Source of the DNA: Cladopsammia gracilis
Lineage: Eukaryota; Cnidaria; Anthozoa; Scleractinia; Dendrophylliidae
Length of the DNA: 64,000 nt
Direction: 5' to 3'
Assembly (NCBI GenBank): GCA_022457155.1
Contig: JAJGOT010000452.1
Location: 645,551-709,550 of the forward strand
Shown here in pieces: positions 28,324 through 62,186 of this stretch (position 1 is its first letter; each line of letters opens with the position of its first letter). The notes beneath the pieces were generated by a model. The model saw only the letters and a list, made by a program, of their open reading frames with translations, was not told where the DNA came from and ran no database searches. Position numbers and translations under genes: made by a program.

Positions 28324-28803
28324 TAATCAACTTTCTCATGTTTGTAATCAGTCCCATAATTAATTGCGGAGTTACAATAAAACAACAACAACTTTGTGTG
28401 GCTGAAAATGGGGAAGTGGGTGACAAAATGCTCCATTAAAAAGTCAGCCCCATGTACTCCTGGATTGTCATTAGCTAACAAAACCTACTGCCAGGGTGGT
28501 ACACAGACCGGTATAGAGGAGGGAGTTGGGCCTCCTCTCAGGGCCGACTGTGACCATTCCTGGGTAGAGAGGAGGGAGTTGGGCCTTCTCTCTGATTGGA
28601 GGGAGTTGGGCCTCCACTAACCTAGATCTAAGGTACACAGACCGGTATAGAGGAGGGAGTTGGGCCTCCTCTCAGGGCCGACTGTGACCATTCCTGGGCC
28701 TATACTAACCTAGATCCAAGGAGTACAGAATGGAGGGAGTTGGGCCTCCAAAATGTCGAGTCTATGGGGGCAAAAGTGTGACAGGAGGATCACTTTATCC
28801 CCA
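28324..28803 (-). repeat. Split direct repeat B2 (3' terminus of the YR element)
   Basis: 480 bp, nearly identical to B1. It contains five short hairpins of the type ggagggagttgggcctcc and an internal partial duplication (gaccggtatagaggaggg at two places). Confidence 0.9.
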
Positions 28804-29349: not shown

Positions 29350-29829
29350 TAATCAACTTTCTCATGTTTGTAATCAGTCCCATAATTAATTGCGGAGTTA
29401 CAATAAAACAACAACAACTTTGTGTGGCTGAAAATGGGGAAGTGGGTGACAAAATGCTCCATTAAAAAGTCAGCCCCATGTACTCCTGGATTGTCATTAG
29501 CTAACAAAACCTACTGCCAGGGTGGTACACAGACCGGTATAGAGGAGGGAGTTGGGCCTCCTCTCAGGGCCGACTGTGACCATTCCTGGGTAGAGAGGAG
29601 GGAGTTGGGCCTTCTCTCTGATTGGAGGGAGTTGGGCCTCCACTAACCTAGATCTAAGGTACACAGACCGGTATAGAGGAGGGAGTTGGGCCTCCTCTCA
29701 GGGCCGACTGTGACCATTCCTGGGCCTATACTAACCTAGATCCAAGGAGTACAGAATGGAGGGAGTTGGGCCTCCAAAATGTCGAGTCTATGGGGGCAAA
29801 AGTGTGACAGGAGGAGCACTTTATCCCCA
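29350..29829 (-). repeat. Split direct repeat B1 of the YR element
   Basis: 480 bp copy of B2 lying 60 bp after the recombinase stop codon. The same 74-codon plus-strand frame appears in B1 and B2 only because the DNA is duplicated; it is not called as a gene. Confidence 0.9.
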
Positions 29830-29889: not shown

Positions 29890-30891
29890 TTACAAGAGGT
29901 TGACCAGTGTCTGGGGAACCTGTGCCAGAACTGAGGGTGGGGTTTTGATGTACCTCTCAAAACAGTCTGATGACCAGCGCCCTAAAACCTTAATAAGCCA
30001 TGGGGGTAAATTGGCTGAAGCCGCTGTTGTAGCTGCACCTATTCGAAAACTGTGGCCAGCAAATTCACTCGAATTCAGCCCTCCCTTTGAAAGTAAAAGC
30101 CTTGTCTCACTTGTTAATTTTTCCCGAGTAAGGAATGAGCCAGATTCATAAGAAAATAGGGGCCCTGTGGTGGGAAAGGGGGTCCTTGACTCTAGGTATG
30201 CCAACATGGCAGAAATAGGGCATAAATTAGAGTTTGTCCTCCCAATTACTATAGTCTGTCCTTGTCTAAAGGGGTCGGTTTTCGAAACTTTTAACTGAAC
30301 TAACATATATTTGGGGGAAGACTTTGGCATAAACACTAAGTCGGTTATTGTGAGGTGACGTTCGGGATTGAAGTTGGAGTCACAGGTTAGTTCACCAATA
30401 CGAAGAAAACCAAAAAAAGCAAGGGTCATAGCTGCCCAAACTATTAGGGAATCTTTGTTGTCAGTATATTTGACATTTAAAAGGTGGTAAAATAAATTTA
30501 ATAAGTGCAATGTGATAGGTCTGCGGACTGTGGAATGAACCCCTTGGGAACGTTTTATCCCATGGAGAATGAGCCGCAAGCGAAGGAAAGCCGAGAGGTT
30601 CAGCTCGTAACCACTGCTAGAATGGTAGTGTTTTACTGCAGATAAATAATTCTTGATAGTACTATGTTGTACTGAACGAGCCATGCAGACTGAAAAATTT
30701 ATCAGGGTGTCCTCATTGATGGGAAGAGTGGGCGTAATTTTCATTTGTGAGCAAAAGGAGTAAAATAGTCGCACACCAGAACTGTAGGTTTTCTTAGTAT
30801 TCTGTGAAAGGGCCATCCCTAGGTAATACTGAGCTTCTCCGCTTAGAGACTGTACACACAGGCTGGGATGGGGTCTGGAGTCACATTGCAC
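29890..30891 (-). CDS. Tyrosine recombinase of the YR retrotransposon
   Basis: The enzyme would integrate the circular DNA copy of the element. The frame is open from 30891 but its first real ATG is at 30814-30816 (MALSQNTKKTYSSGV), giving about 308 residues. The N-terminal SAM-like core-binding domain (TKKTYSSGVRLFYSFC, TIKNYLSAVKHYH) is followed by the catalytic domain. Catalytic residues seen are Arg in GFLRIGEL, the HxxR box in AGHSFRIGAA, and the nucleophile Tyr in RWSSDCFERYI. The frame is intact to the stop at 29890-29892. Its open region overlaps the RNase H frame by 49 bp, as is common in compact retroelements. Confidence 0.9.
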   Translation of the reverse strand: MQCDSRPHPSLCVQSLSGEAQYYLGMALSQNTKKTYSSGVRLFYSFCSQMKITPTLPINEDTLINFSVCMARSVQHSTIKNYLSAVKHYHSSSGYELNLSAFLRLRLILHGIKRSQGVHSTVRRPITLHLLNLFYHLLNVKYTDNKDSLIVWAAMTLAFFGFLRIGELTCDSNFNPERHLTITDLVFMPKSSPKYMLVQLKVSKTDPFRQGQTIVIGRTNSNLCPISAMLAYLESRTPFPTTGPLFSYESGSFLTREKLTSETRLLLSKGGLNSSEFAGHSFRIGAATTAASANLPPWLIKVLGRWSSDCFERYIKTPPSVLAQVPQTLVNLL

Positions 30892-32716
30892 TGAGGAGCT
30901 AGCTGGCGAAAGCGCTCCATCTGAAACCGAGAGAGAGAGTCCGCAATATTGTTATTTTTCCCAGGGACATGTACTGCACGAAAGTAGAAATTATGTCTTA
31001 GGGTACAAAGGGTAAGGTCCCTGACCAAGTCCATGACCCTGGGGACTTTGGATTTCCGGGAATTGATAACCTCGACCACACCCAAATTGTCACAATGGAA
31101 CTTAATGCGCTTGGACGTCCAATGGGGCCCCCACAGGTGGCAAGCAATATTGATTGCAAATAATTCTTGCCAGAGAATGCTCATGCCAGGTTGTCCTAAG
31201 TTCTGGTGGGGTAACCATTTTCCCTGAAACCAACTAGTTTGAAAAAAGCCCCCATAACCAACGGAGCCAGAGGCATCCGTAAATAGGGAGAGGGTCTCAG
31301 AGGTGTCCCACTTGGAAGACAGGAACAGCCCTACTCCATTCCACTGTTCAATGAACATGCTCCACATTTCAACGTCCTTGTAAAAACCAGTTGTGAGCTT
31401 AATGTGGTGATGGGGTTGTTTGACATCTCTGGTAAGGCCAATCATTCGTTGCAGAAAGGGGCGTCCGGGGGGAATGACCTTACATGCAAAATTTAGTGTA
31501 CCAATCAGTGATTGGAGCTCTTGCAGGGTTGTTGTTCGCTTTGATTGAAATGCATGTAGGGCGGTTTTGATTCGCTCAACCTTGTCCTCCGGCAGCCTTG
31601 CTTCCATTTTGTGGGAATCTAAAATAATTCCCATGAACTCAATGACTTTGCTAAGGCCCTCTGTTTTGGCTACCGAAATGGGGATATTGAGGTTTTTGAA
31701 GGAGAGGATCATGCTAGATAGACTTGCCTGACAAGGGGAATCGAAGGGCATGCTGGGAGCAGGTGGTTCAATTATAAGGAAATCATCCAATATGTGGCAG
31801 ACAAAGGAAATTGAACAATTATTTAGCAAAATTCACTCAATGGCATCAGACACTTGATTGAAAATAATGGTGCCGAACGGAGCCCAAAGGGGAGTACCTT
31901 GTCAAAATAATAGAACCCATTCCAGAACATTCCCAAAAGTTCCCAATCATCTGGATGGACGGGAAAAAGCCTAAATGCTGATTCTATGTCAGTTTTGGCC
32001 ATAAAGCAGTCGGAACCAAACCCTTGGATAGCCATAATGGCATTGTCGATGGTAATGTATTGAAGTGAGAAGTCATCCTTTTCAATGAAATGGTTAATAC
32101 TGGAGGTCCCGGATTTAGGGAAGGACAGATGAAATATTGTTCGAAACTTGTTGGAATGTTTCTTAGGAACAAGGCCAATTGGTGAAACTTGAAAATTCTC
32201 AAATGGGGCAGAACGAAAAGGGCCCGCAGTTCGTCCTTTGGCCACTTCCTCTGCTAAATTTGATGTGACCACCTCTGGGTTTAGAAATGCAGTAGGTAAA
32301 TTTTTTGAAAAACGGGAACATCTAGGACCAGAGTAGCCAATCCTAGCCCCCTCCCTCAGTTCCAAGCACAGTTTTTCAACAAATTTCCTATTAGGATGGT
32401 AAATCAGAGCCTGTTGTAAATTATGAATATTTACTGGGGTGACCACGCCCCCAAAACTACTTGTCACGGTGGCGGGCACTATGTTGCTGGGGGTGGGACT
32501 TCCCAACCCGTGGGGGTGGTTGCTTTGCAGATTCAGAGGGAGCGAGGCACTCGATCCCGGGGTGATCCCTTCCACACCCTGGCTTGTTGCACTTGTGTGC
32601 GTAGGGACAGGGGGTTCTGGCACAGGGAAAACCTTTGTTGTAGTTGTGGCAAGTACGGTTTTCGTTCCCTCTAAATGTACTTGGCACGGATGAGGGTCCT
32701 GATTGGAAAACACCAA
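30843..32716 (-). pseudogene. Reverse transcriptase-RNase H of the YR element, broken by frameshift and stop
   Basis: The first frame (32716-31823) carries the RT fingers and palm: VSPIGLVPKKHSNKFRTIF, motif A MAKTDIESAFRL, and VLPFGLRSAP. The second (31829-30843) has the catalytic ILDDFLI and an RNase H domain with LFTDASGSVGYGG, the WQELFAI Glu, HCDNLGVVEV and NNIADSLSRF. The frame is lost at about 31860-31870, just after motif B, and the matching frame then holds a TGA at 31833-31835 where a Trp codon is likely. Both lesions fall between motif B and the DD box, so no active RT is made by this copy. The upstream frame has no ATG and overlaps gag by about 260 bp, so translation would need frameshifting. 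Confidence 0.88.
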
Positions 32717-33764
32717 TCTCCTCCTTCATAAGTGAAGGTGCTACTGTAGAAGTGTTAAGCCATAATTGGCTATCTATGGCTGACCACTTAAGGGACCTAT
32801 TGGCAGCGGCCTTTTGGCGAAACTTTATGTCATAGACACACCAACCCAACCCCCTATGATATTTTGCTGCATAGCGAATTAAGGACAGGTATTCAAGCAA
32901 CTCTGCAGCACGAGGTGGGTATTTGCTAATAATAACACTCATGTATGCTGTAAAAGCCGAGGTCCATTCCTCGATATCAGTTATGGAAGTGGCTTTGGTC
33001 TTATTTACCCTTATTACAGAGTTCTCTAGAGTCAGGGTAAGAGGCTCATCATAGAAAGGCTGCAACGAGTTAAAGTTCTTCGGTAATAACTTTGAAAGTT
33101 CCATAAACTCACCAGAGAGGATTTCCTTCACTAGCTTGGCTGGGAGTTCGTGTACAGAATCAGAAGGCTGCTGCTGAGACGTAGAGGCAATGGCCACGTC
33201 GATCCGGCGAGTGTCATCCGGTGCAATGGAACGAAGGACTGGTGGGGTAATGGTGTCGTCGTTCGACGCGTTTCTGTTCGGGACGGTAGCAGCGGGAGGC
33301 GAAGCTCCATTGAAAGCGTTCTCTGCAGCTTGAGCAGCGGCGGTTGCTGTTCTTTCAATAGTGTCATTAATGGTGGCTTGGACGAGGGATTGTACCTGTG
33401 TAAGCTGGCTATCAGACAGCACTCTCTCATTGGAGGATTCGCGGTTCAGCAAGCCTTGAACTTGTTGTTGTAGCTGTTCAAATTGCTGTTGGAGATTGTC
33501 CGCGTGGTCGCCGCCATTCTGGTCAGTGGGCGGGACGCCATTTGCAGTTGCTGGAGTTATTGTGGTTGCAGTTGCTGGAGTTATTGCGTTTCGCCGAGCT
33601 TCTTCTATCCGTTGAACAAGTGTGGCGCGTACTCCGGTTGTAGGGAGCTTTAGCCGGTTGCACAGAGTTCTTAAGTCCTTGACATACATTCCCTCGAGGT
33701 CGAGATCGGCTGGGATATTCACTGGTTGGTCTGCTCCGCTCCGTTTCCGACGAGTAGGCGGCAT
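32457..33764 (-). CDS. Gag-like protein of the YR element, with SAP domain and Cys/His motif
   Basis: 435 residues from a genuine ATG. Residues about 15-58 form a SAP-like DNA-binding motif (LEGMYVKDLRTLCNRLKL, GVRATLVQRIEEAR). A Gln-rich coiled stretch (QQQFEQLQQQVQGLLN) follows, then a central domain, and near the C terminus a zinc-binding-like Cys/His cluster (CHNYNKGFPCARTPCPYAH then CNKPGCGRDHPGIEC). This layout matches ORF1 of DIRS/Ngaro-type elements. The protein presumably packages element RNA. The frame is intact. Confidence 0.85.
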   Translation of the reverse strand: MPPTRRKRSGADQPVNIPADLDLEGMYVKDLRTLCNRLKLPTTGVRATLVQRIEEARRNAITPATATTITPATANGVPPTDQNGGDHADNLQQQFEQLQQQVQGLLNRESSNERVLSDSQLTQVQSLVQATINDTIERTATAAAQAAENAFNGASPPAATVPNRNASNDDTITPPVLRSIAPDDTRRIDVAIASTSQQQPSDSVHELPAKLVKEILSGEFMELSKLLPKNFNSLQPFYDEPLTLTLENSVIRVNKTKATSITDIEEWTSAFTAYMSVIISKYPPRAAELLEYLSLIRYAAKYHRGLGWCVYDIKFRQKAAANRSLKWSAIDSQLWLNTSTVAPSLMKEEIGVFQSGPSSVPSTFRGNENRTCHNYNKGFPCARTPCPYAHKCNKPGCGRDHPGIECLAPSESAKQPPPRVGKSHPQQHSARHRDK

Positions 33765-47242: not shown

Positions 47243-49731
47243 ATGGTTTCAAAGACGTTGCTTCTTATTTGTCTAATGGCGCTCCTGACATCGCTCTGGG
47301 GTTTTCCTTTACCAATTCATGATGGTGAGAACAACTTTATTTTGCCTTCTGTTTTAACTCCAAGTATTGGATTGATTTAAAATTGCGTTGGATTGCGTTG
47401 GTATCATCGATCTTTCTAAAGTACTTCAGATGATGGTGCCCTTTAAAAAAGCCACTTTGAATGATTGAGTCGGGATTGAGTGAACCAACGTTTATTTTCT
47501 TTAATAGCTTTCTGCGTAGTTCTAGAAACATTGATTTTGTCATTTGCTCAATTCTAAAATTAACAGTTTGCATGTCTAATACAACATACGATAAAGCGCT
47601 CCTAAGAGTATAATTGATAGCACGTTTCTTGTTCAAGTCATTTGTGACACAAATTATTTCTGATCGCCTTTCTGTCCTCCAAGCGTTCAATCGATAAATT
47701 CCAGCGTACACAAATTACGGTTTACATGTACGTTTTTTTAATTCAACCAAAAGATGACGGAGGGGATAAACACCCAACCAAAGACGAGTCGTTGGACGTT
47801 GAAAATACCGTGCGAGGTGATCCTGGTACAACCGACAGAAATGACGACAAAAATGAAAATGTCGAAGACCCGATAACAGAAGGCGATGGTAAGAGATTTA
47901 GATGTTTTTATTTACCTCTACGATATTTAAAGCAAGCAAGAATATTTCGTTCATTAAAAAGTAGATTTAGGTTATTCAGTTCTAATTGCCCTGTCACACT
48001 ATTGCGTATCCATACTAGCGTATGCCAGCGTATGAAAAATGTCACTCATACGCTGGTATACGCTGACATACGCTAGGGGTACGTTAGGCATAGGTTGTAT
48101 ACGTTTCAAGCACGGTCGCATACGGTGGCATACGCTGGCATACGGCGAGGCAGAAAACATTTTTTAAGCATGCATACGGCTTAAAAACTTTGTGCGTATT
48201 CGGACGTATGGTTTATACGCTAAGCATACGCTAGGCATACGCTGAATACGCGAGAGTTATGCTAGAGGTACGTTACCCATACGTCAAGTACGCTGGTCAA
48301 ACGCTGTATTTTCAAGAGCATTTTGTGCGTATGAAAATTGTTTTATGAATTTTCATACGCAACTCATACGTTTCTCTCATACGCAATAGATAGTGTGACA
48401 GGGCCTTAAAGAATCTGACCCACCCAGTTTGCATTGCGCGCCTACGTTGGTTCATCCGCCATTTTCAGGGCCCCCGAAAGTCCATACTGTATTGTAGATG
48501 AGAAATTTACTCGTGCAAGAGGTGATATGCATGCCCAAATATGGAATAGAGCCGTATCATAACAATAATAGAAGCGCGCAATGCAAACTGGGTGGGTCAG
48601 ACTCTTAAACGTTTAATATCTCAGTCCTTGGTTGTGGCATAAACAAACGCGTTTGATTGACATATTAAACTGAACATTTTTACTCGGCGACAGCTAACAG
48701 ATTCACGCCCAATAACGCTTTAGCGGCTTGAAATTGCGGAAGCCGGGTGGAGACGACATCTAAACTTATCGAACCTAATTATTTATAAGTTGTTTGAAAA
48801 CGCCAAGTCAAGCTAATACTCATGATTTATGAGTTTCTATGCGGTGCCTTGTCGACAATTTCTCAGTCATTTTTCGTGATATGCGATCCTATCGCTTAAT
48901 TAGTAGGGAATGAAATTAGGTATCGTGTCACATACTCCGTCACTTTGTGATAGGTCAGTGAAAATTTGGTGGTGCTATTTACCCCGTTTAATGTTCTACC
49001 CATTAAATTAATATTTAACAGAAAATGGCAAACAGAATGAAGAGGAAAGTGATGAAAAAGAAGGTTCATTCCAGAAAAAAGATTCTGACACGAAAACACA
49101 CAAATGGGTAGATGATAAGGACAGTAAGGACGAAACTGCAATCGATGACAAAAGAGAAGTCAAAGCAAAGAATGATGAGAACGACGTTGGAAATAAGAAT
49201 AAAGGGCAGCAAGGTTATGAAAAAGGTAATGAAGATGGCAGTGATGATAAAGCTGGTCAAAACAAAAAAGACGATGGAGAAAAAGGAGTCGAAGGCGATC
49301 ACTATGCTGACAAAGATGATGATGATAGTGGCATCGACAGTGGTGACGACAGTGGTGATGACAGTGGTGATGACAGTGGTGATGACAGTGGTGACGACAG
49401 TGGTGATGACAGTGGTGATGACAGTGGTGATGATAATGGTGATGACAGTGGTGATGACAGTGGTGACAACAGCAATGATGACAGCAGTGATGACAGTGGT
49501 GATAACAGCGGTGATGATAACGGTGATGACAATGGTGATGACAGCGGTGATGACAGTCGCGATAAGAGTGGTAATGACAATGATGATCAAAATCATGGTG
49601 ACAAAAAAGATAAAGACGACGACGATGATGATAACGAAGATGATGACGATGATGAGAATAAGTATGAGGATGATGACGATGATGACGATGATGACGATGA
49701 CGAAGACGATAACGATGACGATGATGATGAC

Positions 49732-49776
<45 letters not shown>

Positions 49777-50025
49777 AATGATGACGACGACGATGATGAT
49801 GATGACGATGACGATAATGACGACGACGATGATGACGATGGTGATGGTGATGATGATGATCGTGATGACTATCAGTACAACAGCAACAAAGAGAAAAATG
49901 CCGAAGACGCAGAAAGTGCTGCAGTGGATAATTTTTTTATGTCTGGTGGGCTTTCATCAAGTGGAGGAGTTGCTTGTATCTTTGTATCTACCATAACTTG
50001 CTTAATTCTTAGCATAATTTATTAG
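47243..50025 (+). CDS. Secreted Asp/Ser/Gly-repeat acidic protein 1, with GPI-like tail
   Basis: The exons are 47243-47324, 47754-47888 and 49022-50025. Phases agree (82 + 135 + 1004 = 1221 nt) and give 406 residues. Exon 1 is a signal peptide (MVSKTLLLICLMALLTSLWG) plus FPLPIHD. Exon 2 is acidic (GDKHPTKDESLDVENT). Exon 3 begins with a Lys/Asp/Glu-rich stretch, has about 20 DDSG-type tetrads (49320-49560), then a nearly pure Asp tract, and ends NFFMSGGLSSSGG plus VACIFVSTITCLILSIIY, a likely GPI-attachment signal. Exon 3 has no useful ATG, so it is visible only through splicing. The composition resembles dentin-phosphoprotein-like and coral secreted acidic proteins thought to bind Ca2+; that role is inferred. 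It is paralogous to the gene at 56769-62186. Confidence 0.85.
47988..48404. mobile_element. MITE in intron 2 of acidic-protein gene 1, rich in catacgc
   Basis: The ends gccctgtcacacta and tagtgtgacagggc are inverted repeats. The interior is packed with catacgc and gcgtatg words in both orientations (at least a dozen), giving many possible foldings. Confidence 0.8.
48406..48608. mobile_element. Second MITE, adjoining the first
   Basis: The arms ttaaagaatctgaccc...gcattgcgcg and complement (about 35 bp) enclose 130 bp. Only one base separates it from the preceding MITE. Confidence 0.8.
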
Positions 50026-50376
50026 TTCACAAAATTATTCTACTCAGCCAACCTAATGCTTGCAATGCACTTATCACACTCAAGTAATTTAAGGTCGTGG
50101 GGGACAGGTTCCGCTCATCAGTTTGCATTTATGAAAAGAGTATACACGAAGTTGCGACGGCTTGTACCGAAAATGCGCGAAATATTCACGAAATATTCGC
50201 TTTGTTACTAATTTCATCGGTTAAAAACCCACTCATATTTACTTCAATAATCACATACTATAATTAGTCCAAACAAAGCGAAAGATGACCAAAATTCACA
50301 GAAAATTTCAACGGATTACACCGATAAAGTCAACACTGAATAAAACCTTTGACCTGAAGGATTTATTGGGTATGTA
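50026..50376. other. 3' flank of acidic-protein gene 1
   Basis: This should contain the 3' UTR. The first AATAAA is at about 50338 (gaataaaacc). Confidence 0.4.
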
Positions 50377-50679
50377 TACAGCTGTTTGATTAAACGTTGT
50401 CATTGATCGGTCTCATCCCTACGCGACCAGACCGAAAAGGATTATGGGGAGAAATCAATTCACATTCAATAACTGCACATTATCAAAATACGGAACGTCC
50501 TTATCGAAGCGACTCTGGTTGTCTTTGCGTAACACGCGAAGACAAACATGAGTTTTGTTCTCCGTTGTAAACGCGATATAGAATAATTAATCATGCATTT
50601 TAATTCACCCATACTCCCTTTCGGTCTGGTCGCGTAGGGGTAAGACCGATCAGTGACAAAGTTTAATCAAACAGCTGTA
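50377..50679. mobile_element. MITE-like element, 70-bp arms
   Basis: The arm tacagctgtttgattaaac...gatcggtctc...ctacgcgaccagaccg is matched by its complement at 50612-50679 around 160 bp of other sequence. Confidence 0.8.
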
Positions 50680-51343
50680 ATCATCTATTCAATCAGCTAA
50701 CTGACCGCGACATTTTCACGGGCAAATTTCCGCCAGAGTTATCTACTCGCTTCCGATTGGTCTAAACAATGAAATTGAATGGGTTACGTCATAGCTTTCA
50801 CATGCGCCGAACCTTGAAACCCTCCCTTTAAGGACGGTAATTTTTTAATGTACAATTACACAAGCTACGTAGGCTGCATGCATCATTTCGGATAATTCTT
50901 ACCGCATTACTGGCAATTTCTTTTTTGGCTCAACAACATTTTGGATTTTACTTACAAAGCCTAATAGGTCCGTAACAGCATTGGGCAAATAAGAGTTGAT
51001 TTGTAACAGCGATTAATGCTATATAACATAACAAAAGTTTTCCTCAAATGTTAAGTACATACCTCGCATACCTCGTAAGTAGTTGAGAAGCAAATAACTA
51101 GAGCGTAAGATACTGTTTTTATCGTCTTTTTGATTAAAGATGAAAAAAGAAACCGATATGCTGTAGTCTTAGCCCTATTGCTATAAAAATTCAGTTACAT
51201 ATTATATACTGGTCTCGCGGTTGTTTAAAAGAGAATGACGCTCAACTAAACTGCAGGAATCCTATAACACACCAACTTCGTTCAGCACAACTTAATCTTG
51301 ATTAATATTGAAACCCAGTACCTTTATCTCTTTGCAGATAAAC

Positions 51344-51533
51344 AAGTTTTTCTAACAGGATGTTTTATCTTAATTTCTAAACATCCTGTTAAACAAGTTT
51401 TTCTAACAGGATGTTTTATCTTAATTTCTATATAACAGGATGTTTAGAAATTAAGTTAGAAATTAAGTTAGAAATTAAGTTAGCAAAACTTGTTTTTCTA
51501 ACAGGATGTTTTATCTTAATTTCAAAACAAAAA
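51344..51533. repeat. Cluster of direct and inverted 30-bp repeats
   Basis: The phrase tttttctaacaggatgtttt with atcttaatttc occurs three times direct and in part inverted (aacaggatgtttagaaattaag), with a small tandem of aaattaagttag inside. Confidence 0.8.
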
Positions 51534-51701
51534 AATAGAAAACATTGAAGATGTAATGAAGGTTTAATTTAAAATTAGAGTTGTAGTTAAAGGGAACCTC
51601 CATTGTTATAAGAAATTGATGTTAAATTGTTGGAAAAGAAGCGTAAATTTAAATTTTTGAAAAGACGAGTGCAAAAATAATTTTAGTGTACAAAAAATGA
51701 A

Positions 51702-51870
51702 TATACCTATTTCAATAAAGGTTGCTTTGGTCATTGGTAATTGGGCATTGGGAAGCTATTGTTTGGCGGTCACTCAAGCGAAACATTGCATTGTGTTCCG
51801 TATGCCAAATGCCAATTCTCAATTACCAATGACCAACTGCCAAAGCAACCTTTATTGAATTAGGTGTATA
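51702..51870. mobile_element. MITE-like inverted repeat
   Basis: The arms ttcaataaaggttgctttgg and complement continue into tcattggtaattg and its complement, with an 80-bp centre. Confidence 0.75.
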
Positions 51871-53138
51871 AATATCGCCTATTTTCGCTTTTGAATTTCC
51901 CGTGCGCCACCATTTTGAATATTTATGACGTCATATGTTGCCTAATTGTTGCAAACAAAAGAGCGTCGATTCTTAACAATAGCGGCAACCATATGGCGAC
52001 ATATGGCGGCGAAAATAGGCGATATTCATATCAATTATTTTGCACACTGAAAAGATATTTCCAATTGTTATTAAAATAACCGAAAGTTCGACTTAATTTC
52101 CAACAATTTTACGCCAATTTGTTATGACAATGGAGGTTCCTTTTGAGAATTAGTAGATAAACACCCACTTGCCCACTATAAACCTTGCGTTCTCATCGGT
52201 ATCGACTGTTTGTCGGTGTTTCAGAAATAATTTTTGGTCTTCTATCCCTTCTTTAAATCTCTTACTATTTCATCAAAATTTATGCGCTCTTACAACTAGG
52301 CTGGATCCCAGTAGAAAAATTCGAAGCCCAAACGCACATACCTTTTTCCCCTCTCAGGCAAAAGCAAAATTTTTTTGACCCTTTTTACCATTAAGTGGGA
52401 GTATTATACATTAAAAGTAGTGTAGTTTTATCAGTTTGCATAGGTATAGCAAAACAAATACCGAGGCTATTATTTTCTCCGTAAATTATAGCAATCCATT
52501 GTTATTATCACACAAAGAGGGCTTGAAATAATAAGCTAACATCAGTATTAAAAGGGTGTATCGCAAATTGAGTTTGTGTCTTGGTTATATTCACCATCAC
52601 GGAACGAGCACTTCTAGTTACAAAGTGAACAAAGGGTATTTATAGAGGTGTTTTTAATTGTTATTGTCTTTCTTTTCTCTTTTCTTACATTACACAATTC
52701 AAATCGTTGTGTTCTGCAGTAAAATTTGGCGCTCAAGTGAGATAACACTGAAATCTTTCTTTCAGGCACTTTTTAATCATCAATTTTTCCTGTTTCATTC
52801 ATATCATTAAATTTTTATGACGACATAATACTATAATTCGGCAATATGACCAAATTGAGGTATAAAGAAAGATTAACTGCCCCCAATGTGTCCTTTATCT
52901 CCCGAAATTAAAAGAAACATGGTGCTTTAAAATGTGACAGCGAACATGCATTGATTATTTCAGATCCTTTAATTAATTTATTGTAAGGGTCTCAATCCGT
53001 CATTGTCCGCAATTGCAAATTCTTCTTACTGGTGTACTTACATTTCTTAAAAAGCTATAAGGAGAAGTTTAAATATTAAGGCATTTTAAGTTTGATGTAT
53101 AACAGTCTCATGATCTGTATAATTGATTATACATTAAT
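51871..53138. other. Spacer with no recognised gene
   Basis: AT-rich sequence with short frames only; 51950-52025 contains two copies of atatggcg-like words. Confidence 0.4.
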
Positions 53139-53425
53139 GTTAAGCCTGGTTTTCATATCTCGGGAAAATCCCAGACGATCGAGGATTTCGCTGTTTCCCG
53201 ACTGCCCCAGATTTTGGCCGACTTATGAAAACACTCAATCGTAGACATCTCCGATCATCTGGCATGGTCGGGGACAAATCGGGAAAATCGGGATCGTTTC
53301 TATTTTCCCGGCGCGTCCCAGATTTCTGCAATGATCGGCGATTTTCCCTAAATATCGGCAAAATCTGGGACGATTGCGAACAGCAAAATCCCCGATCGTC
53401 TGGGATTTTCACGACCAGGCTTAAC
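53139..53425. mobile_element. MITE with long imperfect arms
   Basis: The ends gttaagcctgg and ccaggcttaac are exact complements. Inside, gggaaaatcccagacgatcg pairs with cgatcgtctgggattttc, and further (g)ggaaaatcgg blocks repeat in both orientations. Confidence 0.8.
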
Positions 53426-54866
53426 AAGGACTGAAATATGATGCTGGTCATTATTGCAACTGAAGAGTCTGAAGTCAACTGAAAATATTTGGGTTCGCTT
53501 GCATTTGATGAAACTATTTAAAAATCATGGTAGTCAATTTTAAACTATTGTATGAACAGTGGTAAGGAATACCTTCGAATTGAGAACATTCCTTTTTAAT
53601 ACTCCTGATACCTTGCTGTTACATTTATGTTCCTTGGTTTACACTTTTTGCTGCCACTATTAAATGGCGATACCATTTCAATCGTGGTGAACTGAAACTA
53701 GCAATTTCGATTCCATGTCTCTTCATATTTCATAATCGTGATGTATTTCAAAACATCAAAAATGCAATCATAAAGTACATGTGGCCTTTAATTTGAATTG
53801 TTCACTAATACACGAGGCTGGATGTCGTCTGTCTTCAGATTTGTTTATCGTCCCGTCTGACCCAGAACTTATCCCGTGTTAGAAGAGTATCTAAGAAACA
53901 GGAAAAAAACATATCTTAGAAACGAGGGATATGGGACTTTCTTAGTTTATATTTTAATTTACACTATATCAATCACTGGAAGTTAAGTGTTCCTTGTATT
54001 AGCATTCTGTCAGCATATATTTAATTCGTTAAGTGTATCTTTGGTTATCTTTACCGAATTAATTCCCAGTAATTGACAATAAAACAATACGAGCATCATA
54101 AATGAAATACATCACGATGAACCACATTTTAGTGTCATCGTAAAACACTCGGATTTACTTTCGTGATGACTAATTCAAGTCTTCTCTTCGGAAATTAAAA
54201 ATATTGGAAATACTAGATTGCATTATCATGGCCACTTTTTTGTGTACCTAGCAACAAATTTGTGCATTAAAAAGAAACAAAATCTTGTCTAAAAATACCA
54301 CGTCGAGAAACATAAATAGCGTTTCAGGAATAAAAATATGATAAACATTTCTTCATTTCTGGGAAAAGTATCGAAGAGTAAAAAATGATTGACTCAGAGT
54401 AAAATATATTCCGTGGTTAAAACTAGTTTTTGTTGGCATTTCTTAAACTTTGATCGCCATACTGAATTACCGATTATATGTAGAAAATTATTTCCTCCGG
54501 GGATGAAAATAAAGGTTAACTTGAAGCTTTCTCTGCTATCACAGGATTCTCATCAGCAATTGATATTCCACTGTTTCGTCGTAACGTTTTCCTTTCGAAT
54601 TAAGTACACCTAGAATGGATTTTGAGACCGCTAAAAGGTCCTTTTCCCCGTTTCTGTCGGCTTTGGTTGTCTTCTATAGGCCTCACGCTTCAATGCCAAT
54701 GGTTCCTTTAACTGATCCAGGAATGGTGTTTTTATTCAACTGAAGAAAGTGGCCCTCTCATCCAGATGTTTTTGGAAATGCAGGCGTCGGCTGCTTGCGG
54801 TACACAGCAAGTCTCTTGCCCAAGTCTCTAGCTGTTTCTTCGATACATTTTAATTATCCATAACTT
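53426..54866. other. Spacer with no recognised gene
   Basis: AT-rich sequence with no recognisable coding or RNA feature. Confidence 0.4.
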
Positions 54867-55297
54867 TAGGGTGGGGGGGAGTTCTCAACAAAGTTTTGCA
54901 CGGGGATGCTCCGCCCCAAGGTCCAAACTCTTTCCCTTTCATATACCGTTTTTGGCAGAAAAGGTACCCCTTTCATATACCTTTCATTGAAAATGGTACC
55001 CCTTTCATATACCTTTCATTGACAATGGTTCCCCTTTCATATCGCCTTTACGTGCATCTGTTTGATACAGCTTGAAAGGCCCTTTTTATAATACTTAAAT
55101 GACAGTTTTCTTACCCTTTTTAATACATCAACTCGTGTTTCCCTACCCTTTCCTATACTTCGTGAAATCCCTACCCTTTCATATTCTCCAACTCGTGAAA
55201 TCCTTACCCTTTCATATACCTCCAGCCTCAAAAAGGTGTCCCTTTCTGGCGGAGCATCCCCGTATAGCACATTATAGGGTGTACCCCCCCGGGTACA
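54867..55297. mobile_element. G-run-ended element with internal ccctttcatatacc repeats
   Basis: It opens agggtgggggggag and closes with accccccc. Next come cggggatgctccgcc (left) and its complement ggcggagcatccccg (right), a clear inverted pair. Inside, ccctttcatatacc recurs six or more times in imperfect tandem. Confidence 0.7.
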
Positions 55298-56685
55298 TAA
55301 CATTATCAACTTGAAGTTTATACAAACAGATCCAATATATTTTGACATGCTTGACTGGATAAAATATGCATAGATTGTCACGAAACCCCGCGATACATTT
55401 CCCTTTCACAAACCGGTCAGCTCGGCCCAGTTTTTTCAGTGCACCGACAAGTGTGAACAGTGTAATTTGGTTTAAAAAATAGTAGTAGATAAAAGTAGAT
55501 AAAATACTTTTTTATTCCGTGCTATATGTCATCTTGACATGCACTGTTTTTGATGTATTAAAACGACGTTTAAATGTTCGGTTTTACAAGATTGGACTCG
55601 GTTTAGACCGCAGTCTTGTTGAATCCCGTAAAAATTTTTTAAAAAAAATCAGTGCGCAGTATTTAATGAAATCAGATATGACTGTTGTCGATTTCACCTA
55701 TTCAGTATAACAGTAGGCTTGTATTTTGTATACTACAATCTTTGACCTTGATGAAAACAGAGGTATGTCAATTAAAAACGGTTTTGCGTAAAAATCTAAT
55801 TTTTCCATTTTTCATAGCTTGATTGTTTGAAATGCAGTTATGCGGCTTTTACAAAAAAATGACTTTCCATTAAAACTATTCTCAATTTCAATAAATGTGT
55901 AAAAACACCAATAATTTATTGGTATTATGTCTCAGTGGAGGAAAACGCTAGAAATAATAAAGTATCGTGTTTTGTTTTGGAAAGTTTACCCAGCAACGTA
56001 ACCTTTACTAAAAGAAATCCACTCTCCTTAAAAAAGAGAATAGTCATTTATTATTTGTTTTAAATTTAGATTATCCCTAAATTAACGTTACATTGTTTTA
56101 AGGATAAAGATATGAATTTGTTCATTTCTGAATTACACATGGAAGAGTAAGAACTGACAAAAATATTCTTTTTCGAAAAACTAGCTGTTGTTGACATTTC
56201 TGACCATAAAAGCAAATTTAATTTAATTAGCGATGTTTTGCGATTAAAATGTGCATCGATAAACAAAAACAATAATCTTAGTAACAACAATCACCATGGC
56301 TGCGAGCACCAAAATATTTCCCTAATGTATCGCATATTGCCAAGCTGATATATTACTAGTTTCATCAGAAACATAGACAGCGCTTGTATATAAATGTAAT
56401 AAAGAAGATTTCAACTTAAAACTTCTGATAATTATGCACAAGTATAACAATGCCACTCTTGTCCACGTTATCCAAGAATTTAAAGTGATCTGTAATGCTA
56501 AAACTCTTCCCCCCGTTTGAATTGGACTTTGGAAACGTTTCTAAAATGGTAGCGATTATGCTCAAAATATCTCTGCATTAAAACGTATCGCAAAGTGTTC
56601 TTTTGTGTTTAACAATGAAAATGTCCAAAAGCCAGTATCTGGGGTCGAAGTGTATCATAATTGTTTTGCAGCCACACTGAAAACA
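55298..56685. other. Spacer upstream of acidic-protein gene 2
   Basis: No supported gene; AT-rich sequence with short frames. Confidence 0.4.
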
Positions 56686-56691
56686 TATAAA
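56686..56691 (+). promoter_or_regulatory. Likely TATA box of acidic-protein gene 2
   Basis: TATAAA lies 78 bp before the ATG. A second A-rich candidate (cataaaaag) follows at about 56713. Confidence 0.4.
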
Positions 56692-56768
56692 TTGCGAAGT
56701 AGAAGAAGGGCGCACCATAAAAAGCCTAGATAGCATCGCAGAGGTAGTCTTCACTGCACTCACAAGAA

Positions 56769-59700
56769 ATGGCTTCCAAGATTTTGCTTCTTCTCTGTCT
56801 AGTGGCTCTGTTGAGACCGCTTTGGGGTTTGCCTCTGCCGGTTTCAGATGGTAAGACCTGTTCATACTTTTAATAATTTTGATTTCCTTTTTTCTAATGT
56901 TCGTTTTGGTTCTAATTAATTAATGAATAACTGATATCGACTTAGGTATTATTTTAACTCTGTTAAGCTGGACTTAATTGCAGCGAATAATTTTTTACGG
57001 AACTACGCTTTAAGTTTTACTCACCAATTATCACTCTTATTTTAGATATTTATTAATTTCTGTAAAACTGTCAGGTCGGGGAAATTTGTGGCTTATATTT
57101 CTTTCAAACAGTAATGCCTTGAATCGTTTCTGTTCAATGTAGTGTTTTAGTTTTACAATGGATTAATAGGTCAGGGGTCTTATATTCACAATATGCCCAT
57201 TATGCACTCTTCAAGACAGCTTTTATGAATGTCTCGTAAATTTCTGGGAAAATTTTTACTGCATTATGTTGAAGTTCAAATGACCGAAGCTGCCAAATGT
57301 TTGTGTTAAATGTTTTACAAAGCAATATTGATGAACATGTTTGACAGCCTTTAGTTTAAAAAAATAATAACAACTTATCTCTCTTAGATGTTAAAAAGGA
57401 CGACGAAACTCCGACTTTTGGCAACAAAGTCGTAAATGATGATACTAAACAAATGGAGATCGACATGAACAACAGCAGAGATGTTAAAAAGACAGATGTA
57501 CACGTCCTCGATTCGGAACGCCACGGAGATAACGAAAAAACAAGTGGTGGGAAATTTGTTTTACAATCAATGTATTGCCAGTAACTCGGCTATTTAAGCT
57601 ACAGTAAGCCATAAGTTGACGTTATTTTAGCCTGATGTAGCCAGTGAATACTAATTAAGCCCTATAGACATCTGCATTTCTAAAACTGTATTGAAGTATA
57701 ATTAACTTTAACACTTCACCATCCTATTAAACTAAGCCATCGTGTTCATGATTATCACTACAAGCATTTGTAACGAATTCAATATCACTTTAAACTAAAA
57801 AAAAAGGCTTTATTTTGGTATCACTATAGCTAGACGTGCTTTTTCAAAGAATTTCTTAACGAAATTCGTCTACAAATTTAATCTATAGTGGTTCTTGCGG
57901 AATATGAAGTGGAATTGCAAGTGGTCCTCGTACGCTTTCTGGAATAGAAAAAACGTATTTCCTTATTAATTACAACTAAACCTACCTCTTCGACTACAGT
58001 AAAGTTCACTTCCAATTCTATATCAATCATATATCAACAGAGAAAGACAAAATCAAAGGCAATGACAACAATAACAAGAATCATAACGACCACCAAGATG
58101 ATAACAGTGGTGAAGAAAGAGGTAATGACAATAGTGATGACACTGGTGATTACAACAGTCATAGCAGTGGTGATAGCAGTGGTGATAACAGTGGTGATAG
58201 CAGTGGTGATAGCAGTGGTGATGACAGTGGTGATAGCAGTGGTGATGACAGTGGCGATGACAGTGGTGATGACAGTGGCGATGACAGTGGTGATGACAAT
58301 GGTGATGACAGTGGTGATGACAGTGGTGATGACAGTGGTGATGATAGTGGTGATCACAGCAGTGATAGCAGTGGTGATAGCAGTGGTGATAGCAGTGGTG
58401 ATGACAATGGTGATGACAGTGGTGATGACGGTGGTGATGACAGTGGTGACGACAATGATGATGACAGTGGTGATGACAGTGGTGATGACAGTGGTGATGA
58501 CAGTGGTGATGACAGTGGTGATGACAGTGGTGATGACAGTGGTGATGACAATGCTGATGACAGTGGTGATGACAGCGGCGATGACAGTGGTGATGACAGT
58601 GGTGATGACAATGCTGATGACAGTGGTGATGACAGCGGCGATGACAATGGTGATGACAGTGGTGATGACAGTGGTGATGACAGTGGTGATGACAGTGGTG
58701 ATGACAGTGGTGATCACAGCAGTGATAGCAGTGGTGATAGCAGTGGTGATAGCAGTGGTGATGACAGTGGTGATGACAATGGTGATGACAGTGGTAATGA
58801 CAGTGGTGATGACAGTGGTGATGACAATGATGATGACAGTGGTGATGACAGTGGTGATGACAGTGGTGATGACAGTGGTGATGACAATGGTGATAGCAGT
58901 GGTGATGACAGTGGTGACGACAGTGGTGACGACAGTGGTGATGACAGCGGTGATGACAATGGTGATGACACTGGTGATGACAATGGTGATGACAGTGGTG
59001 ATGACAGTGGTGACGACAGTGGTGACGACAGTGGTGATGACAGTGGTGACGACAGTGGTGATGACAGTGGTGACGACAATGGTGACGACAATGGTGATGA
59101 CAGTGGTGATGACAGTGGTGACGACAATGGTGACGACAGTGGTGATGACAGTGGTGATGACATCGGTGATGACAGTGGCGACGACAATGGTGATGACAGT
59201 GGCGATGACAGTGGTGATGACAATGATGATGACAGTGGAGATGACAGCGGTGATGACGGTGGTGATGACAGTGGTGATGACAATGGTGATGACAATGATG
59301 ATGACAGTGGTGATGACAGTGGTGATGACAGTGGCGATGACAGTGGTGATGACAATGGTGATGACAGCGGTGATGACAGTGGTGATGACAGTGGTGATGA
59401 CAATGGTGATGACAATGATGATGACAGTGGTGATGACAGTGGTGATGACAGTGGTGATGACAGCGGTGATGACAGCGGTGATGACAGTGTTGATGACAAT
59501 GGTGATGACAATGGTGATGACAATGGTGATGACAGTGGTGATGACAGTGGTGATGACAGCGGTGATGACAGCGGTGATGACAGTGTTGATGACAGTGGTG
59601 ATGACAGCGGCGATGACAGTGGTGATGACAATGGTGATGACAGTGGTGATGACAATGGTGATGACAGTGGTGATGACAGTGGTGATGACAATGATGATGA

Positions 59701-62186
59701 CAGTGGTGATGACAGTGGTGATGACAGTGGTGACGACAATGGTGATGACAGTGGTGATGACAGTGGTGACGACAGTGGTGATGACAGTGGTGATGACAGT
59801 GGTGATGACAGTGGTGATGACAGTGGTGACGACAGTGGTGATGACAATGGTGATGACAATGGTGATGACAGTGGTGACGACAGTGGTGATGACAATGATG
59901 ATGACAGTGGTGATGACAGTGGTGATGACAGCGGTGATGACAATGGTGATGACGGTGGTGATGACAGTGGTGATGACAATGATGATGACAGTGGTGATAG
60001 CAGTGGTGATGACAGTGGTGACGACAGTGGTGACCACAGTGGTGATGACAGCGGTGATGACAAAGGTGATGACACTGGTGACGATAATGGTGATGACAGT
60101 GGTGATGACAGTGGTGATTACAGCAGTGATAGCAGTGGTGATAGCACTGGTCATAGCAATAGTGATAGCAGTGGTGATAGCAATGGTGATAGCAGTGGTG
60201 ATAGCAGTGGTGATAGCAGTGATTATGGCAATGGTAATGACAGTAGTGATAGCAGTGGTGATGACAGTGGTGATGACAATGGTGATGACAGTGGTGATGA
60301 CACTGCTGACGACAGTGGTGATGACAATAGTGATGACAGCGTTGATGACAGTGGCGATGATAATGGTGACGACAATGGTGACAACAGTTGTGATGACAGA
60401 GGTGATGAGAGTGGCGATGACAGTGGTGATGACAGTGGTGACGACAGTGGTGATGACAGTGGTGATGACAGCGGTGAGGACAGTGGTGACGACAATGGTG
60501 ACGACAATGGTGATGACAGCGGTGATGACAGTGGTGAGGACAATAGTGACGACAATGGTGATGACAGTGGTGATGACAGTGGTGATGACAATGGTGATGA
60601 CAGTGGTGATGACAGTGGTGATGACAGTGATGATGACAATGATGATGACAGTGGTGATGACAGCGGTGATGACAGTGGTGACGACAATGGTAATGACAGT
60701 GGTGATGACAGTGGTGACGACAGTGGTGATGACAGCATTGATGACAATGGTGATGACAGTGGTGATGACAGTGGTGACGACAGTGGTGATGACGGTGGTG
60801 ATGACAGTGGTGATGACAGCGGTGATGACAGTGGTGATGATAGCAGTGATGACAGTGGTGATGACAATGGTGACGACAATGGTGACGACAGTGGTGATGA
60901 CAGTGATGACGACAATGGTGATGACAGTGGTGATGACAATGATGATGACAGTGGCGATGACAATGATGATGACAGTGGTGATGGCAGTGGTGACGACAAT
61001 GGTGATGACAGTGGTGACGACAATGGTGATGACAGTGGTGATGACAGTGGTGATGACAATGATGATGACAGTGGCGATGACAGTGGTGATGATAATGGTG
61101 ACGACAATGGTGACAACAGTTGTGATGACAGAGGTGATGACAGTGGTGATGACAGTGGTGATAACAGTGGTGACGACAGTGGTGATGACAATGATGATGA
61201 CAGTGGTGATGTCAGTGGTGAAGACAGTGGTGATGACAGTGGTAATAACAGTGGTGATTACAGTGGTGATGACAGTGGTGGAGACAGTAGTGATGACAGT
61301 GGTTATGACAATGGTAATGACAGTGGTGATGACAATGGTGATGACGGCGGTGATGATAGTGGCGATGATAGCGGTGATTACCTTTGGTGATGGCAGTGCT
61401 GTTGACCATGGCGATGACGGTGGCGATGACAGTGGTGATAACAATGGTGATGACAGCGGTGATGACACTAGTGATGACAGTGGTGAAGAAAGTGGTGACG
61501 GAAGCGTTGATGACAGCGGTGATGACAGTGGTGATGACAATGGCGATAACAGTGGTGAAGACAATGATGACGACAGTGGTGATGATAGATTTGATGGCAG
61601 TGGTGACGACAATGATGAAGACAGCAGTGATGATAGTGGTGATGGCAGTGGTAACAACAATGTTGAGGACAGTGGCGATGACAGTGGTAACGACAGTGGT
61701 GATGACAGTGGAGATGATAGCGGTGAAAGCAACGGTGATGACAGTGATGAAAACAGTGGTGATGACAGCAGTGATGACAGTGGTGATGACAGTGTTGATG
61801 ACAGCGGTCACGACGGTGGTGATGACAGTGGTGATGACAGCGATGATGACAGCGGTGATGACACTGGTGATGACAGTGGTGAAGAAAGTGGTGACGGAAG
61901 CGTTGATGAAAGCGGTGATGACAGTGGTGATGACAGCGGTGATGACAGTGGTGATGACAATGGTGATGACAGCGGTGAAGACAATGGTGATGACAGTGGT
62001 GATGACAGTGGTGAAGACAATGGTGATGACAGTGGTGATGACAGTAGTGGTGACAAAGAGCAAGGGGAAAACAAGGATAACACAGAAGGAGACAATATGA
62101 TAACGTCTGGAGTGTCTTCGCTTTGTGTTGGATTTTCTTGCGTGTTTTTAAGCATCATGACTTGGTTTTTATTAACGGTCTGTTAA
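56769..62186 (+). CDS. Secreted Asp/Ser/Gly-repeat acidic protein 2, very long repeat exon, one frameshift
   Basis: The exons are 56769-56850, 57388-57546 and 58041 onward, with the same phases as the paralog at 47243-50025. Exon 1 is a signal peptide (MASKILLLLCLVALLRPLWG) plus LPLPVSD, exactly as long (82 nt) as in the paralog. Exon 2 is charged (VKKDDETPTFGNK). Exon 3 is some 3.9 kb of a 12-nt unit, gatgacagtggt, coding for DDSG with DDNG, DSSG and DDDD variants. The frame set by splicing runs to a TGA at 61388-61390 (1196 residues). From about 61383 the same repeat continues in the +1 frame to TAA 62184-62186 and ends NMITSGVSSLCVGFSCVF plus LSIMTWFLL, matching the GPI-like tail of gene 1. 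So one extra base (or two missing) near 61382 splits the gene, either truly or by assembly error. Ca2+ binding is inferred from composition. Confidence 0.82.
58130..62050 (+). repeat. Coding minisatellite, 12-nt unit gatgacagtggt
   Basis: About 320 units lie in tandem with third-position changes, agt/aat (Ser/Asn) swaps and gatagc variants. Higher-order copies are visible, for example the block with gatcacagcagtgatagc near 58352 and again near 58712, and the gacaacagttgtgatgac block near 60372 and 61110. Period-3 purity makes both strands stop-free in several frames. Confidence 0.95.

Follow-up and report, generated by a model that had tools for sequence, protein, structure and literature searches.

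The closest described counterparts of the genes considered here, two aspartate-rich repeat genes (gene A and gene B) in a 64,000-nucleotide window of the stony coral Cladopsammia gracilis, are the coral secreted acidic proteins (SAPs) SAP1 and SAP2, entered for Acropora millepora (Amil-SAP1, B3EWZ0/B3EWZ1; Amil-SAP2, B3EWZ4) and for A. digitifera (Adi-SAP1/2). The window comprises positions 645,551 to 709,550 of contig JAJGOT010000452.1 (C1111) of the 878-Mb assembly GCA_022457155.1, and it ends where the contig ends. Literature statements here and below hold for the portions of the sources that were available. Amil-SAP1 consists of two fragments, of 168 and 142 aa, with a signal peptide at residues 1-20, a transmembrane segment at 124-141, a glycosylphosphatidylinositol (GPI) site predicted at G119, an RGD motif at 119-121 and a G[D7]S repeat, these features being assigned to the fragments by length, as the table rows of the source run together (PMC4043741). 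For Amil-SAP2 the entry is a fragment of 168 aa whose repeat is SG[D6]GD; the authors' proposal is that matrix proteins, anchored at first, undergo release and are later occluded (PMC4043741). In the A. digitifera skeleton, Adi-SAP2 has the highest spectral count given (4,703), while the tandem genes listed for that species in the available text are laminin G/EGF and USOMP-1, with SAPs not among them. SAPs have been detected beyond acroporids, in complex corals only (PMC6824150); transcript values for SAP1/SAP2 are given in two of four corals (PMC9570262), and SAP 1B/2 is mentioned in Montipora foliosa (PMC10662330). No description of a SAP gene cluster was found in the literature searched, which did not extend to Ramos-Silva 2013 or Shinzato 2011, and we do not claim a first description.

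Two further groups invite comparison. SAARP, CARP and acidic SOMP proteins are likewise Asp-rich proteins of the coral skeleton and are secreted; GPI or transmembrane anchors are predicted for some of them. These proteins keep conserved non-acidic regions common to other cnidarians and bivalves, whereas no such region was recognised in A or B by eye, no profile having been run. Dentin phosphoprotein (DSPP) is alike in its long Asp/Ser repeat, and SIBLING genes have a clustered layout; the genes described here differ in the Gly of most units, the GPI-type tail and the phase-1 introns, and relatedness is not expected. The likeness to dentin phosphoprotein noted in a preliminary description of this locus is compositional.

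We place genes A and B in a family of clustered genes whose products are secreted, Asp-rich repeat proteins like the coral SAPs, a reading to which we assign, mechanism included, a probability of about 0.75. The gene structure, the coding frame in two family loci, the paralogy and the cluster are demonstrated by what can be read from the genome. The three exons of gene A (47243-50025) join in frame across two GT-AG introns, both of phase 1, to encode a 406-aa protein, which bears out the spliced plan first proposed for it (joins 47324/47754 and 47888/49022) at the level of sequence. The leader of this protein is hydrophobic and about 20 residues long; the acidic exon that follows contains VRGDPG, and after it come a linker rich in lysine and glutamate, the DDSG array, a poly-Asp stretch and, behind FMSGGLSSSGG, a hydrophobic end. 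In gene B, exons 1 and 2 and exon 3 up to 61390 join in frame with the same phases as in A, and as assembled they would give a protein of 1196 aa in all, without the tail. The extreme acidity that had been predicted is found in both, with D at 38% and a net charge of -139 in A, and D at 45% and about -517 in B (to its TGA). The features of the two genes are as follows, splice-site ranks being derived from weights not fitted to corals.

Gene A
47143: TATA-like box
47243..47324, plus strand: exon 1, 82 nt, with start, leader MVSKTLLLICLMALLTSLWG, then FPLP; donor ranked 1 of 30
47754..47888, plus strand: exon 2, 135 nt, phase 1-1, acidic, with VRGDPG; donor ranked 1 of 80, acceptor weak (12 of 26)
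47988..48404: insertion in intron 2 resembling a miniature inverted-repeat transposable element (MITE), with 15-bp perfect terminal inverted repeats
48406..48609: second MITE-like insertion in intron 2, adjoining the first, with 36-nt inverted repeats (94%)
49022..50025, plus strand: exon 3, 1004 nt including the stop, with linker, DDSG array, poly-Asp and tail; acceptor ranked 7 of 67 over the whole intron
49320..49587, plus strand: 12-nt (DDSG) array, about 22 copies
49624..49868, plus strand: poly-Asp stretch
49927..50022, plus strand: C-terminal GPI-type tail, DNFFMSGGLSSSGG and hydrophobic end
50339: AATAAA

Gene B
56686: TATA-like box
56769..56850, plus strand: exon 1, 82 nt, leader MASKILLLLCLVALLRPLWG; donor ranked 1 of 36
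57388..57546, plus strand: exon 2, 159 nt, phase 1-1, charged/acidic; donor ranked 2 of 32, acceptor 4 of 28
58041..61390, plus strand: exon 3 in the DSG frame, ending at TGA 61388-61390; acceptor ranked 2 of 28
58099..62055, plus strand: 12-nt array, about 330 copies of TGATGACAGTGG
61376..61386, plus strand: one-base register change, which puts the tail out of frame
61383..62186, plus strand: continuation of the DSG frame, 267 codons to the stop, out of frame with the upstream exon
62091..62183, plus strand: tail homologous to that of gene A, out of frame
62240: AATAAA

A and B resemble each other in their leader exons and tails. The leader exons, which had been described as identical 82-nt signal exons, are indeed equal in length and phase, but their sequences agree at only 61 of 82 nt and 18 of 27 aa, a score reached by none of 2000 shuffles; the similarity of the tails was likewise reached by 0/2000. 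Both translations begin with a signal peptide of about 20 residues, cleavage after residue 20 being assumed by eye. The intron phases are equal as stated earlier, phase 1 at both introns. The middle exons are acidic (A) and charged/acidic (B), yet similarity between them is undetectable (1939/2000 shuffles score as high), and that between the non-repeat starts of exon 3 is not significant (291/2000). In the 300 bases upstream the genes have one short stretch in common (1/500 shuffles as good). Exon 2 of gene A is conserved in P0008, an open reading frame (ORF) on a 995-bp ENA contig and the one protein found among 23 candidates with gene A residues 1-170 as query: 39 of 44 residues are identical, RGD included, and the P0008 ORF reads through the exon homologous to exon 2.

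The earlier view of A and B as a tandem pair proved too narrow. A protein search of the assembly with gene B exons 1 and 2 gave 15 matches, namely gene B exon 2 itself and 14 leader exons, so that the leader (signal) exon occurs at no fewer than 14 places, the count being a lower bound from a single query and a limited first look. Twelve of the leader exons had E < 0.1; the two remaining matches were weak (E 0.98 and 4.0), yet their donor is the same and an acidic ORF follows each. C1111 carries nine of the 14, spread over about 287 kb (about 415.7 to 702.4 kb); four represent two loci each present twice, on C391 and C720 in blocks 90-97% identical, and one lies on C1120. All 14 end in an ATG|GT phase-1 donor, and M1, S3 and C10 are invariant in their alignment. 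Eleven gene models were built for nine loci and carry zero internal stops across their junctions; beside A (406 aa) and B (1196 aa, up to its TGA) they are G1 (1500 aa), G2 (1067), G4 (205), G5 (585), e547 (136), G7a (303), G7b (288), G8a (158) and G8b (172). Three leader-exon loci outside the models were assessed by inspection (C1111:439565, C1111:465606 and C1120:177649), and their downstream ORFs are Glu/Asp-rich, mucin-like and Asp/His-rich. A small acidic second exon is present in A, B, G1 and G5; a scan of 45-420 nt (donor score >=0.5) found none in the other seven models, although absence is unproven. At a further locus, G9 (C391:37090), there is an array with an in-frame stop, for which genome searches for the leader exon found no such exon. 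G2 (L011/L012, C1111:453150-459406) is 57% Asp over its 1067 aa. Weaker arrays (about 64-71% identity) are numerous elsewhere in the genome.

The acceptor scores of A and B lend the proposed junctions weak support, and the comparative evidence from the family is stronger. Among the acceptors close to where the acidic open frame begins, the one with the highest score, irrespective of its phase, is compatible with phase 1 in 8/9 non-allelic loci (10/11 when both versions of two loci are counted), where one in three would be expected (binomial P about 0.001). The exception is gene B, whose proposed acceptor ranks second.

As anticipated, the repeat exons contain no useful ATG in the DSG frame, exon 3 of gene A having a single Met, within the tail, and that of gene B zero before its TGA. 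Long stop-free alternatives also exist as claimed: a Val/Met/Thr frame of 1374 aa that begins with ATG (58062-62186), and an antisense frame of 1232 aa that begins with TTG (58034-61732). The forecast risk of wrong-frame annotation is concrete: because of the one-base change, the Val/Met/Thr ORF of gene B runs into the genuine tail, and a gene finder could choose it because it ends there. Two family loci allow the frame to be determined by comparison, as C391 and C720 each carry a version of G7 and of G8, through allelism or recent duplication. Indels between versions in the acidic exons measure 12, 9, 33 and 15 bases in G7 and 6, 18, 3 and 27 in G8, all eight being multiples of three and seven of the eight not multiples of the 12-base unit. 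Those in the G7 intron (1, 13 and 14 bases) include no multiple of three, and those in the G7 flanks include 1/9 and 2/4 (3/13); the G8 introns, which differ by 660 bases in length, were left out of this comparison. In the DSG frame the dN/dS-like (non-synonymous to synonymous) ratio is 0.20 in G7 and 0.16 in G8, against 0.26 to 5.52 and 0.25 to 1.68, respectively, in the other five frames; those non-DSG frames with a ratio <0.6 contain stops (antisense frame 1 in G7 and G8, sense frame 2 in G7). On this comparative evidence the DSG frame is the coding frame in two family loci, each held in two versions. Within the gene B unit itself, the first Asp codon is changed at positions 1, 2 and 3 in 10, 1 and 41 of 272 units.

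An in-frame C-terminal tail occurs in A, G1, G4, G5, G7a, G7b and e547 (6/9 modelled loci); it follows the register change in B and a stop in G2, and it is absent from G8a, G8b and G9, which, by eye, end at a common stop. Eight tail sequences from seven loci, gene B's out-of-frame tail among them, align with one invariant glycine, an [SAD]-G-[GAV] site and a hydrophobic run to the C-terminus, and the family tail looks like a GPI-type anchor signal. The small-residue site and hydrophobic tail first described for both genes stand in frame in A and several relatives, but out of frame in B. In G2 the stop codon directly precedes the hydrophobic stretch, in the same frame. The two G8 versions (L017 3063-4281, L022 3599-5519) have a common stop and no tail, yet are constrained (ratio 0.16), suggesting that they are functional tail-less members of the family.

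Gene B departs from its initial description as a single protein in frame to 62186. Its repeat register is constant across the upstream array and then moves by one base between 61376 and 61386, and because of this the DSG frame stops at TGA 61388-61390, leaving the tail in the frame that upstream reads Val/Met/Thr. No short intron that would remove the change was found in 61100-61800 (donor score >=4, length >=50 bases). The same frame-shift logic is known from DSPP, where, of the two shifted frames, one runs on into a long product rich in Val/Ala/Ile/Thr and the other ends early (PMC4707025). Gene B may truly lack a tail, either as a variant or as a copy in decay; in that case the living genome carries the one-base change and the locus yields a released 1196-aa product or nothing. 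We take this seriously without favouring it, and it is compatible with the rest of our explanation. Both the register change and the stop are clear, G2 stops just before its hydrophobic stretch, G8a, G8b and G9 end at a common stop without a tail, and the constraint on G8 indicates that tail-less forms may be functional. Against it, the 267 codons past the break are still open, tail included, the tail is still like that of A, and the G1 array, of similar length, is unbroken to its tail. The openness of the array is weak evidence against decay, because no single substitution turns the usual DDSG/N codons into stops. On balance an assembly error or a recent allele-specific break appears somewhat likelier than a fixed break.

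The genes described here resemble coral SAP1 and SAP2 in a predicted signal peptide of about 20 residues, in Asp-rich repeats that contain Ser and Gly, in an RGD motif (in gene A) and in the coral setting. Amil-SAP1 is also listed with a predicted GPI site and a C-terminal hydrophobic segment ending at the penultimate residue, to which the tail of gene A, judged by hydropathy, may correspond; that of gene B is out of frame. A difference is that only fragments, with G[D7]S and SG[D6]GD repeats, are entered for A. millepora, whereas the present genes are whole, form a multi-gene cluster and carry DDSG arrays reaching about 330 units, a second exon being present in some; the RGD positions also differ. 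The earlier judgement that the SAP likeness is only compositional may be too strong, since a similar layout is listed for Amil-SAP1. Likeness by convergence alone, with A and B as acidic repeat proteins unrelated to SAPs (with roles, say, in mucus, in stinging capsules or in Ca2+ storage of another sort), strikes us as unlikely: the resemblance is one of published descriptions, and loci e439 and G3 carry Glu/Asp-rich and mucin-like ORFs after the leader, but leader length, tail position, RGD and repeat type all fit the SAP1 features given in the available source, and the host is a stony coral. A protein search with the whole of gene A, which scored only the 7,988 candidates sharing most words, returned seven matches, four having no local alignment to A and three covering 7-19%. 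The ends of gene B found nothing among 23 candidates, and a literature text search for the peptide strings gave no match. A third possibility, that these arrays are simple-repeat DNA without a coding role and the long frames a by-product of a stop-poor 12-base unit, draws on the several open frames of that unit and the many weaker arrays elsewhere, but is highly improbable and already disfavoured by the frame-preserving indels and low ratios at two loci, by the non-repeat exons, phases and tails common to the family, and by the conservation of gene A exon 2 in P0008.

Several observations nonetheless count against the interpretation of A and B as members of a SAP-like family. Firstly, A, B and their relatives were read from genomic sequence, and the SAP likeness was judged from published feature lists; three protein searches (whole A, with 7,988 candidates scored; A residues 1-170 and the ends of gene B, with 23 candidates each) returned zero named SAPs. 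Secondly, per-site rates in the gene B array show no preference for the DSG frame (20.25 for synonymous and 18.75 for non-synonymous transitions), homogenisation of the units making these counts dependent on one another, and the last 60 codons of G4/G5 are unconstrained (ratio 1.08). Thirdly, the frame of gene B is itself broken, no in-frame tail is present in G9 or, of the modelled loci, in G2 and G8, and GPI attachment was judged by eye and hydropathy only. Lastly, SAP is among the genes followed in Pocillopora damicornis, a robust coral, which conflicts with a restriction to complex corals (PMC12152308, in the text available).

Elsewhere in the window, a Pfam scan covered ten ORFs other than A and B. 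Two were unmatched, and the others gave ankyrin, ion-channel (below cut-off), reverse-transcriptase, integrase, RNase H-like (below cut-off), and SAP DNA-binding or helix-turn-helix domains; the Pfam SAP DNA-binding domain has nothing to do with the coral SAPs. Rfam (gathering threshold) and tRNA scans found nothing. These and other features of the window are listed below.

13067-19800, minus strand: ORFs of which two in the scanned set have ankyrin repeats, with a weak Ion_trans match below cut-off; possibly exons of a TRP-type channel
22647-25091: reverse transcriptase ORF of the LINE (long interspersed nuclear element) type, 814 aa, with RVT_1 and zf-RVT
28498-28750 and 29524-29776: the same 134-base tandem repeat pair, present twice about 1 kb apart
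29890-33764, minus strand: nearby ORFs with an integrase N-terminal domain, an RNase H-like domain (just below cut-off) and a SAP DNA-binding domain; perhaps a DIRS/Ngaro-type element

The genome also contains 39 matches to the green fluorescent protein (GFP) family, clustered on C1227, C1408, C580 and C1127. Two GFP-like exons have Azami Green, a protein from Galaxea, as their best PDB-chain match, and the second also matches amilCP, from Acropora millepora; such an expanded set of GFP-like genes closest to coral proteins fits a stony coral host.

With these reservations, the most likely role that we infer for the products of A and B is that of Ca2+-binding calcification proteins, anchored on the calcifying epithelium and then occluded in the skeleton. 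Each modelled gene combines the common leader exon with an acidic repeat exon, a short acidic exon lying between them in some; since the modelled introns are of phase 1, exons could be added or dropped without a change of frame. Under the proposed mechanism, the calcifying epithelium would secrete the protein, the leader and tail pointing to secretion and anchoring, and the anchor would hold it on the outer face. There its dense Asp array, expected like the rest of the protein to be disordered, may bind Ca2+, as the net charges of -139 (A) and -517 (B as assembled) suggest, and stabilise or nucleate calcium carbonate. The protein would then be released and occluded in the skeleton, while members without an in-frame tail would be secreted directly. 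A part in skeleton formation is suggested by the likeness to SAPs, and expression and a skeletal location are presumed with it.

More tentatively still, and with rather more doubt than conviction, the locus may be viewed as a modular source of skeletal acidic proteins, in which one secretory exon, present nine times on the contig, and one anchor-tail module would be combined with fast-diverging phase-1 repeat exons, and in which a stop or frame change near the C-terminus would have switched members repeatedly between anchored and secreted forms, with gene B as one example. SAPs rank among the most abundant proteins of the coral skeleton, yet the A. millepora SAP entries, as given in the source available, are fragments. 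Whole genes with a defined frame and a cluster of relatives would allow skeleton proteomes to be searched properly and would make the question of anchored versus released proteins testable.

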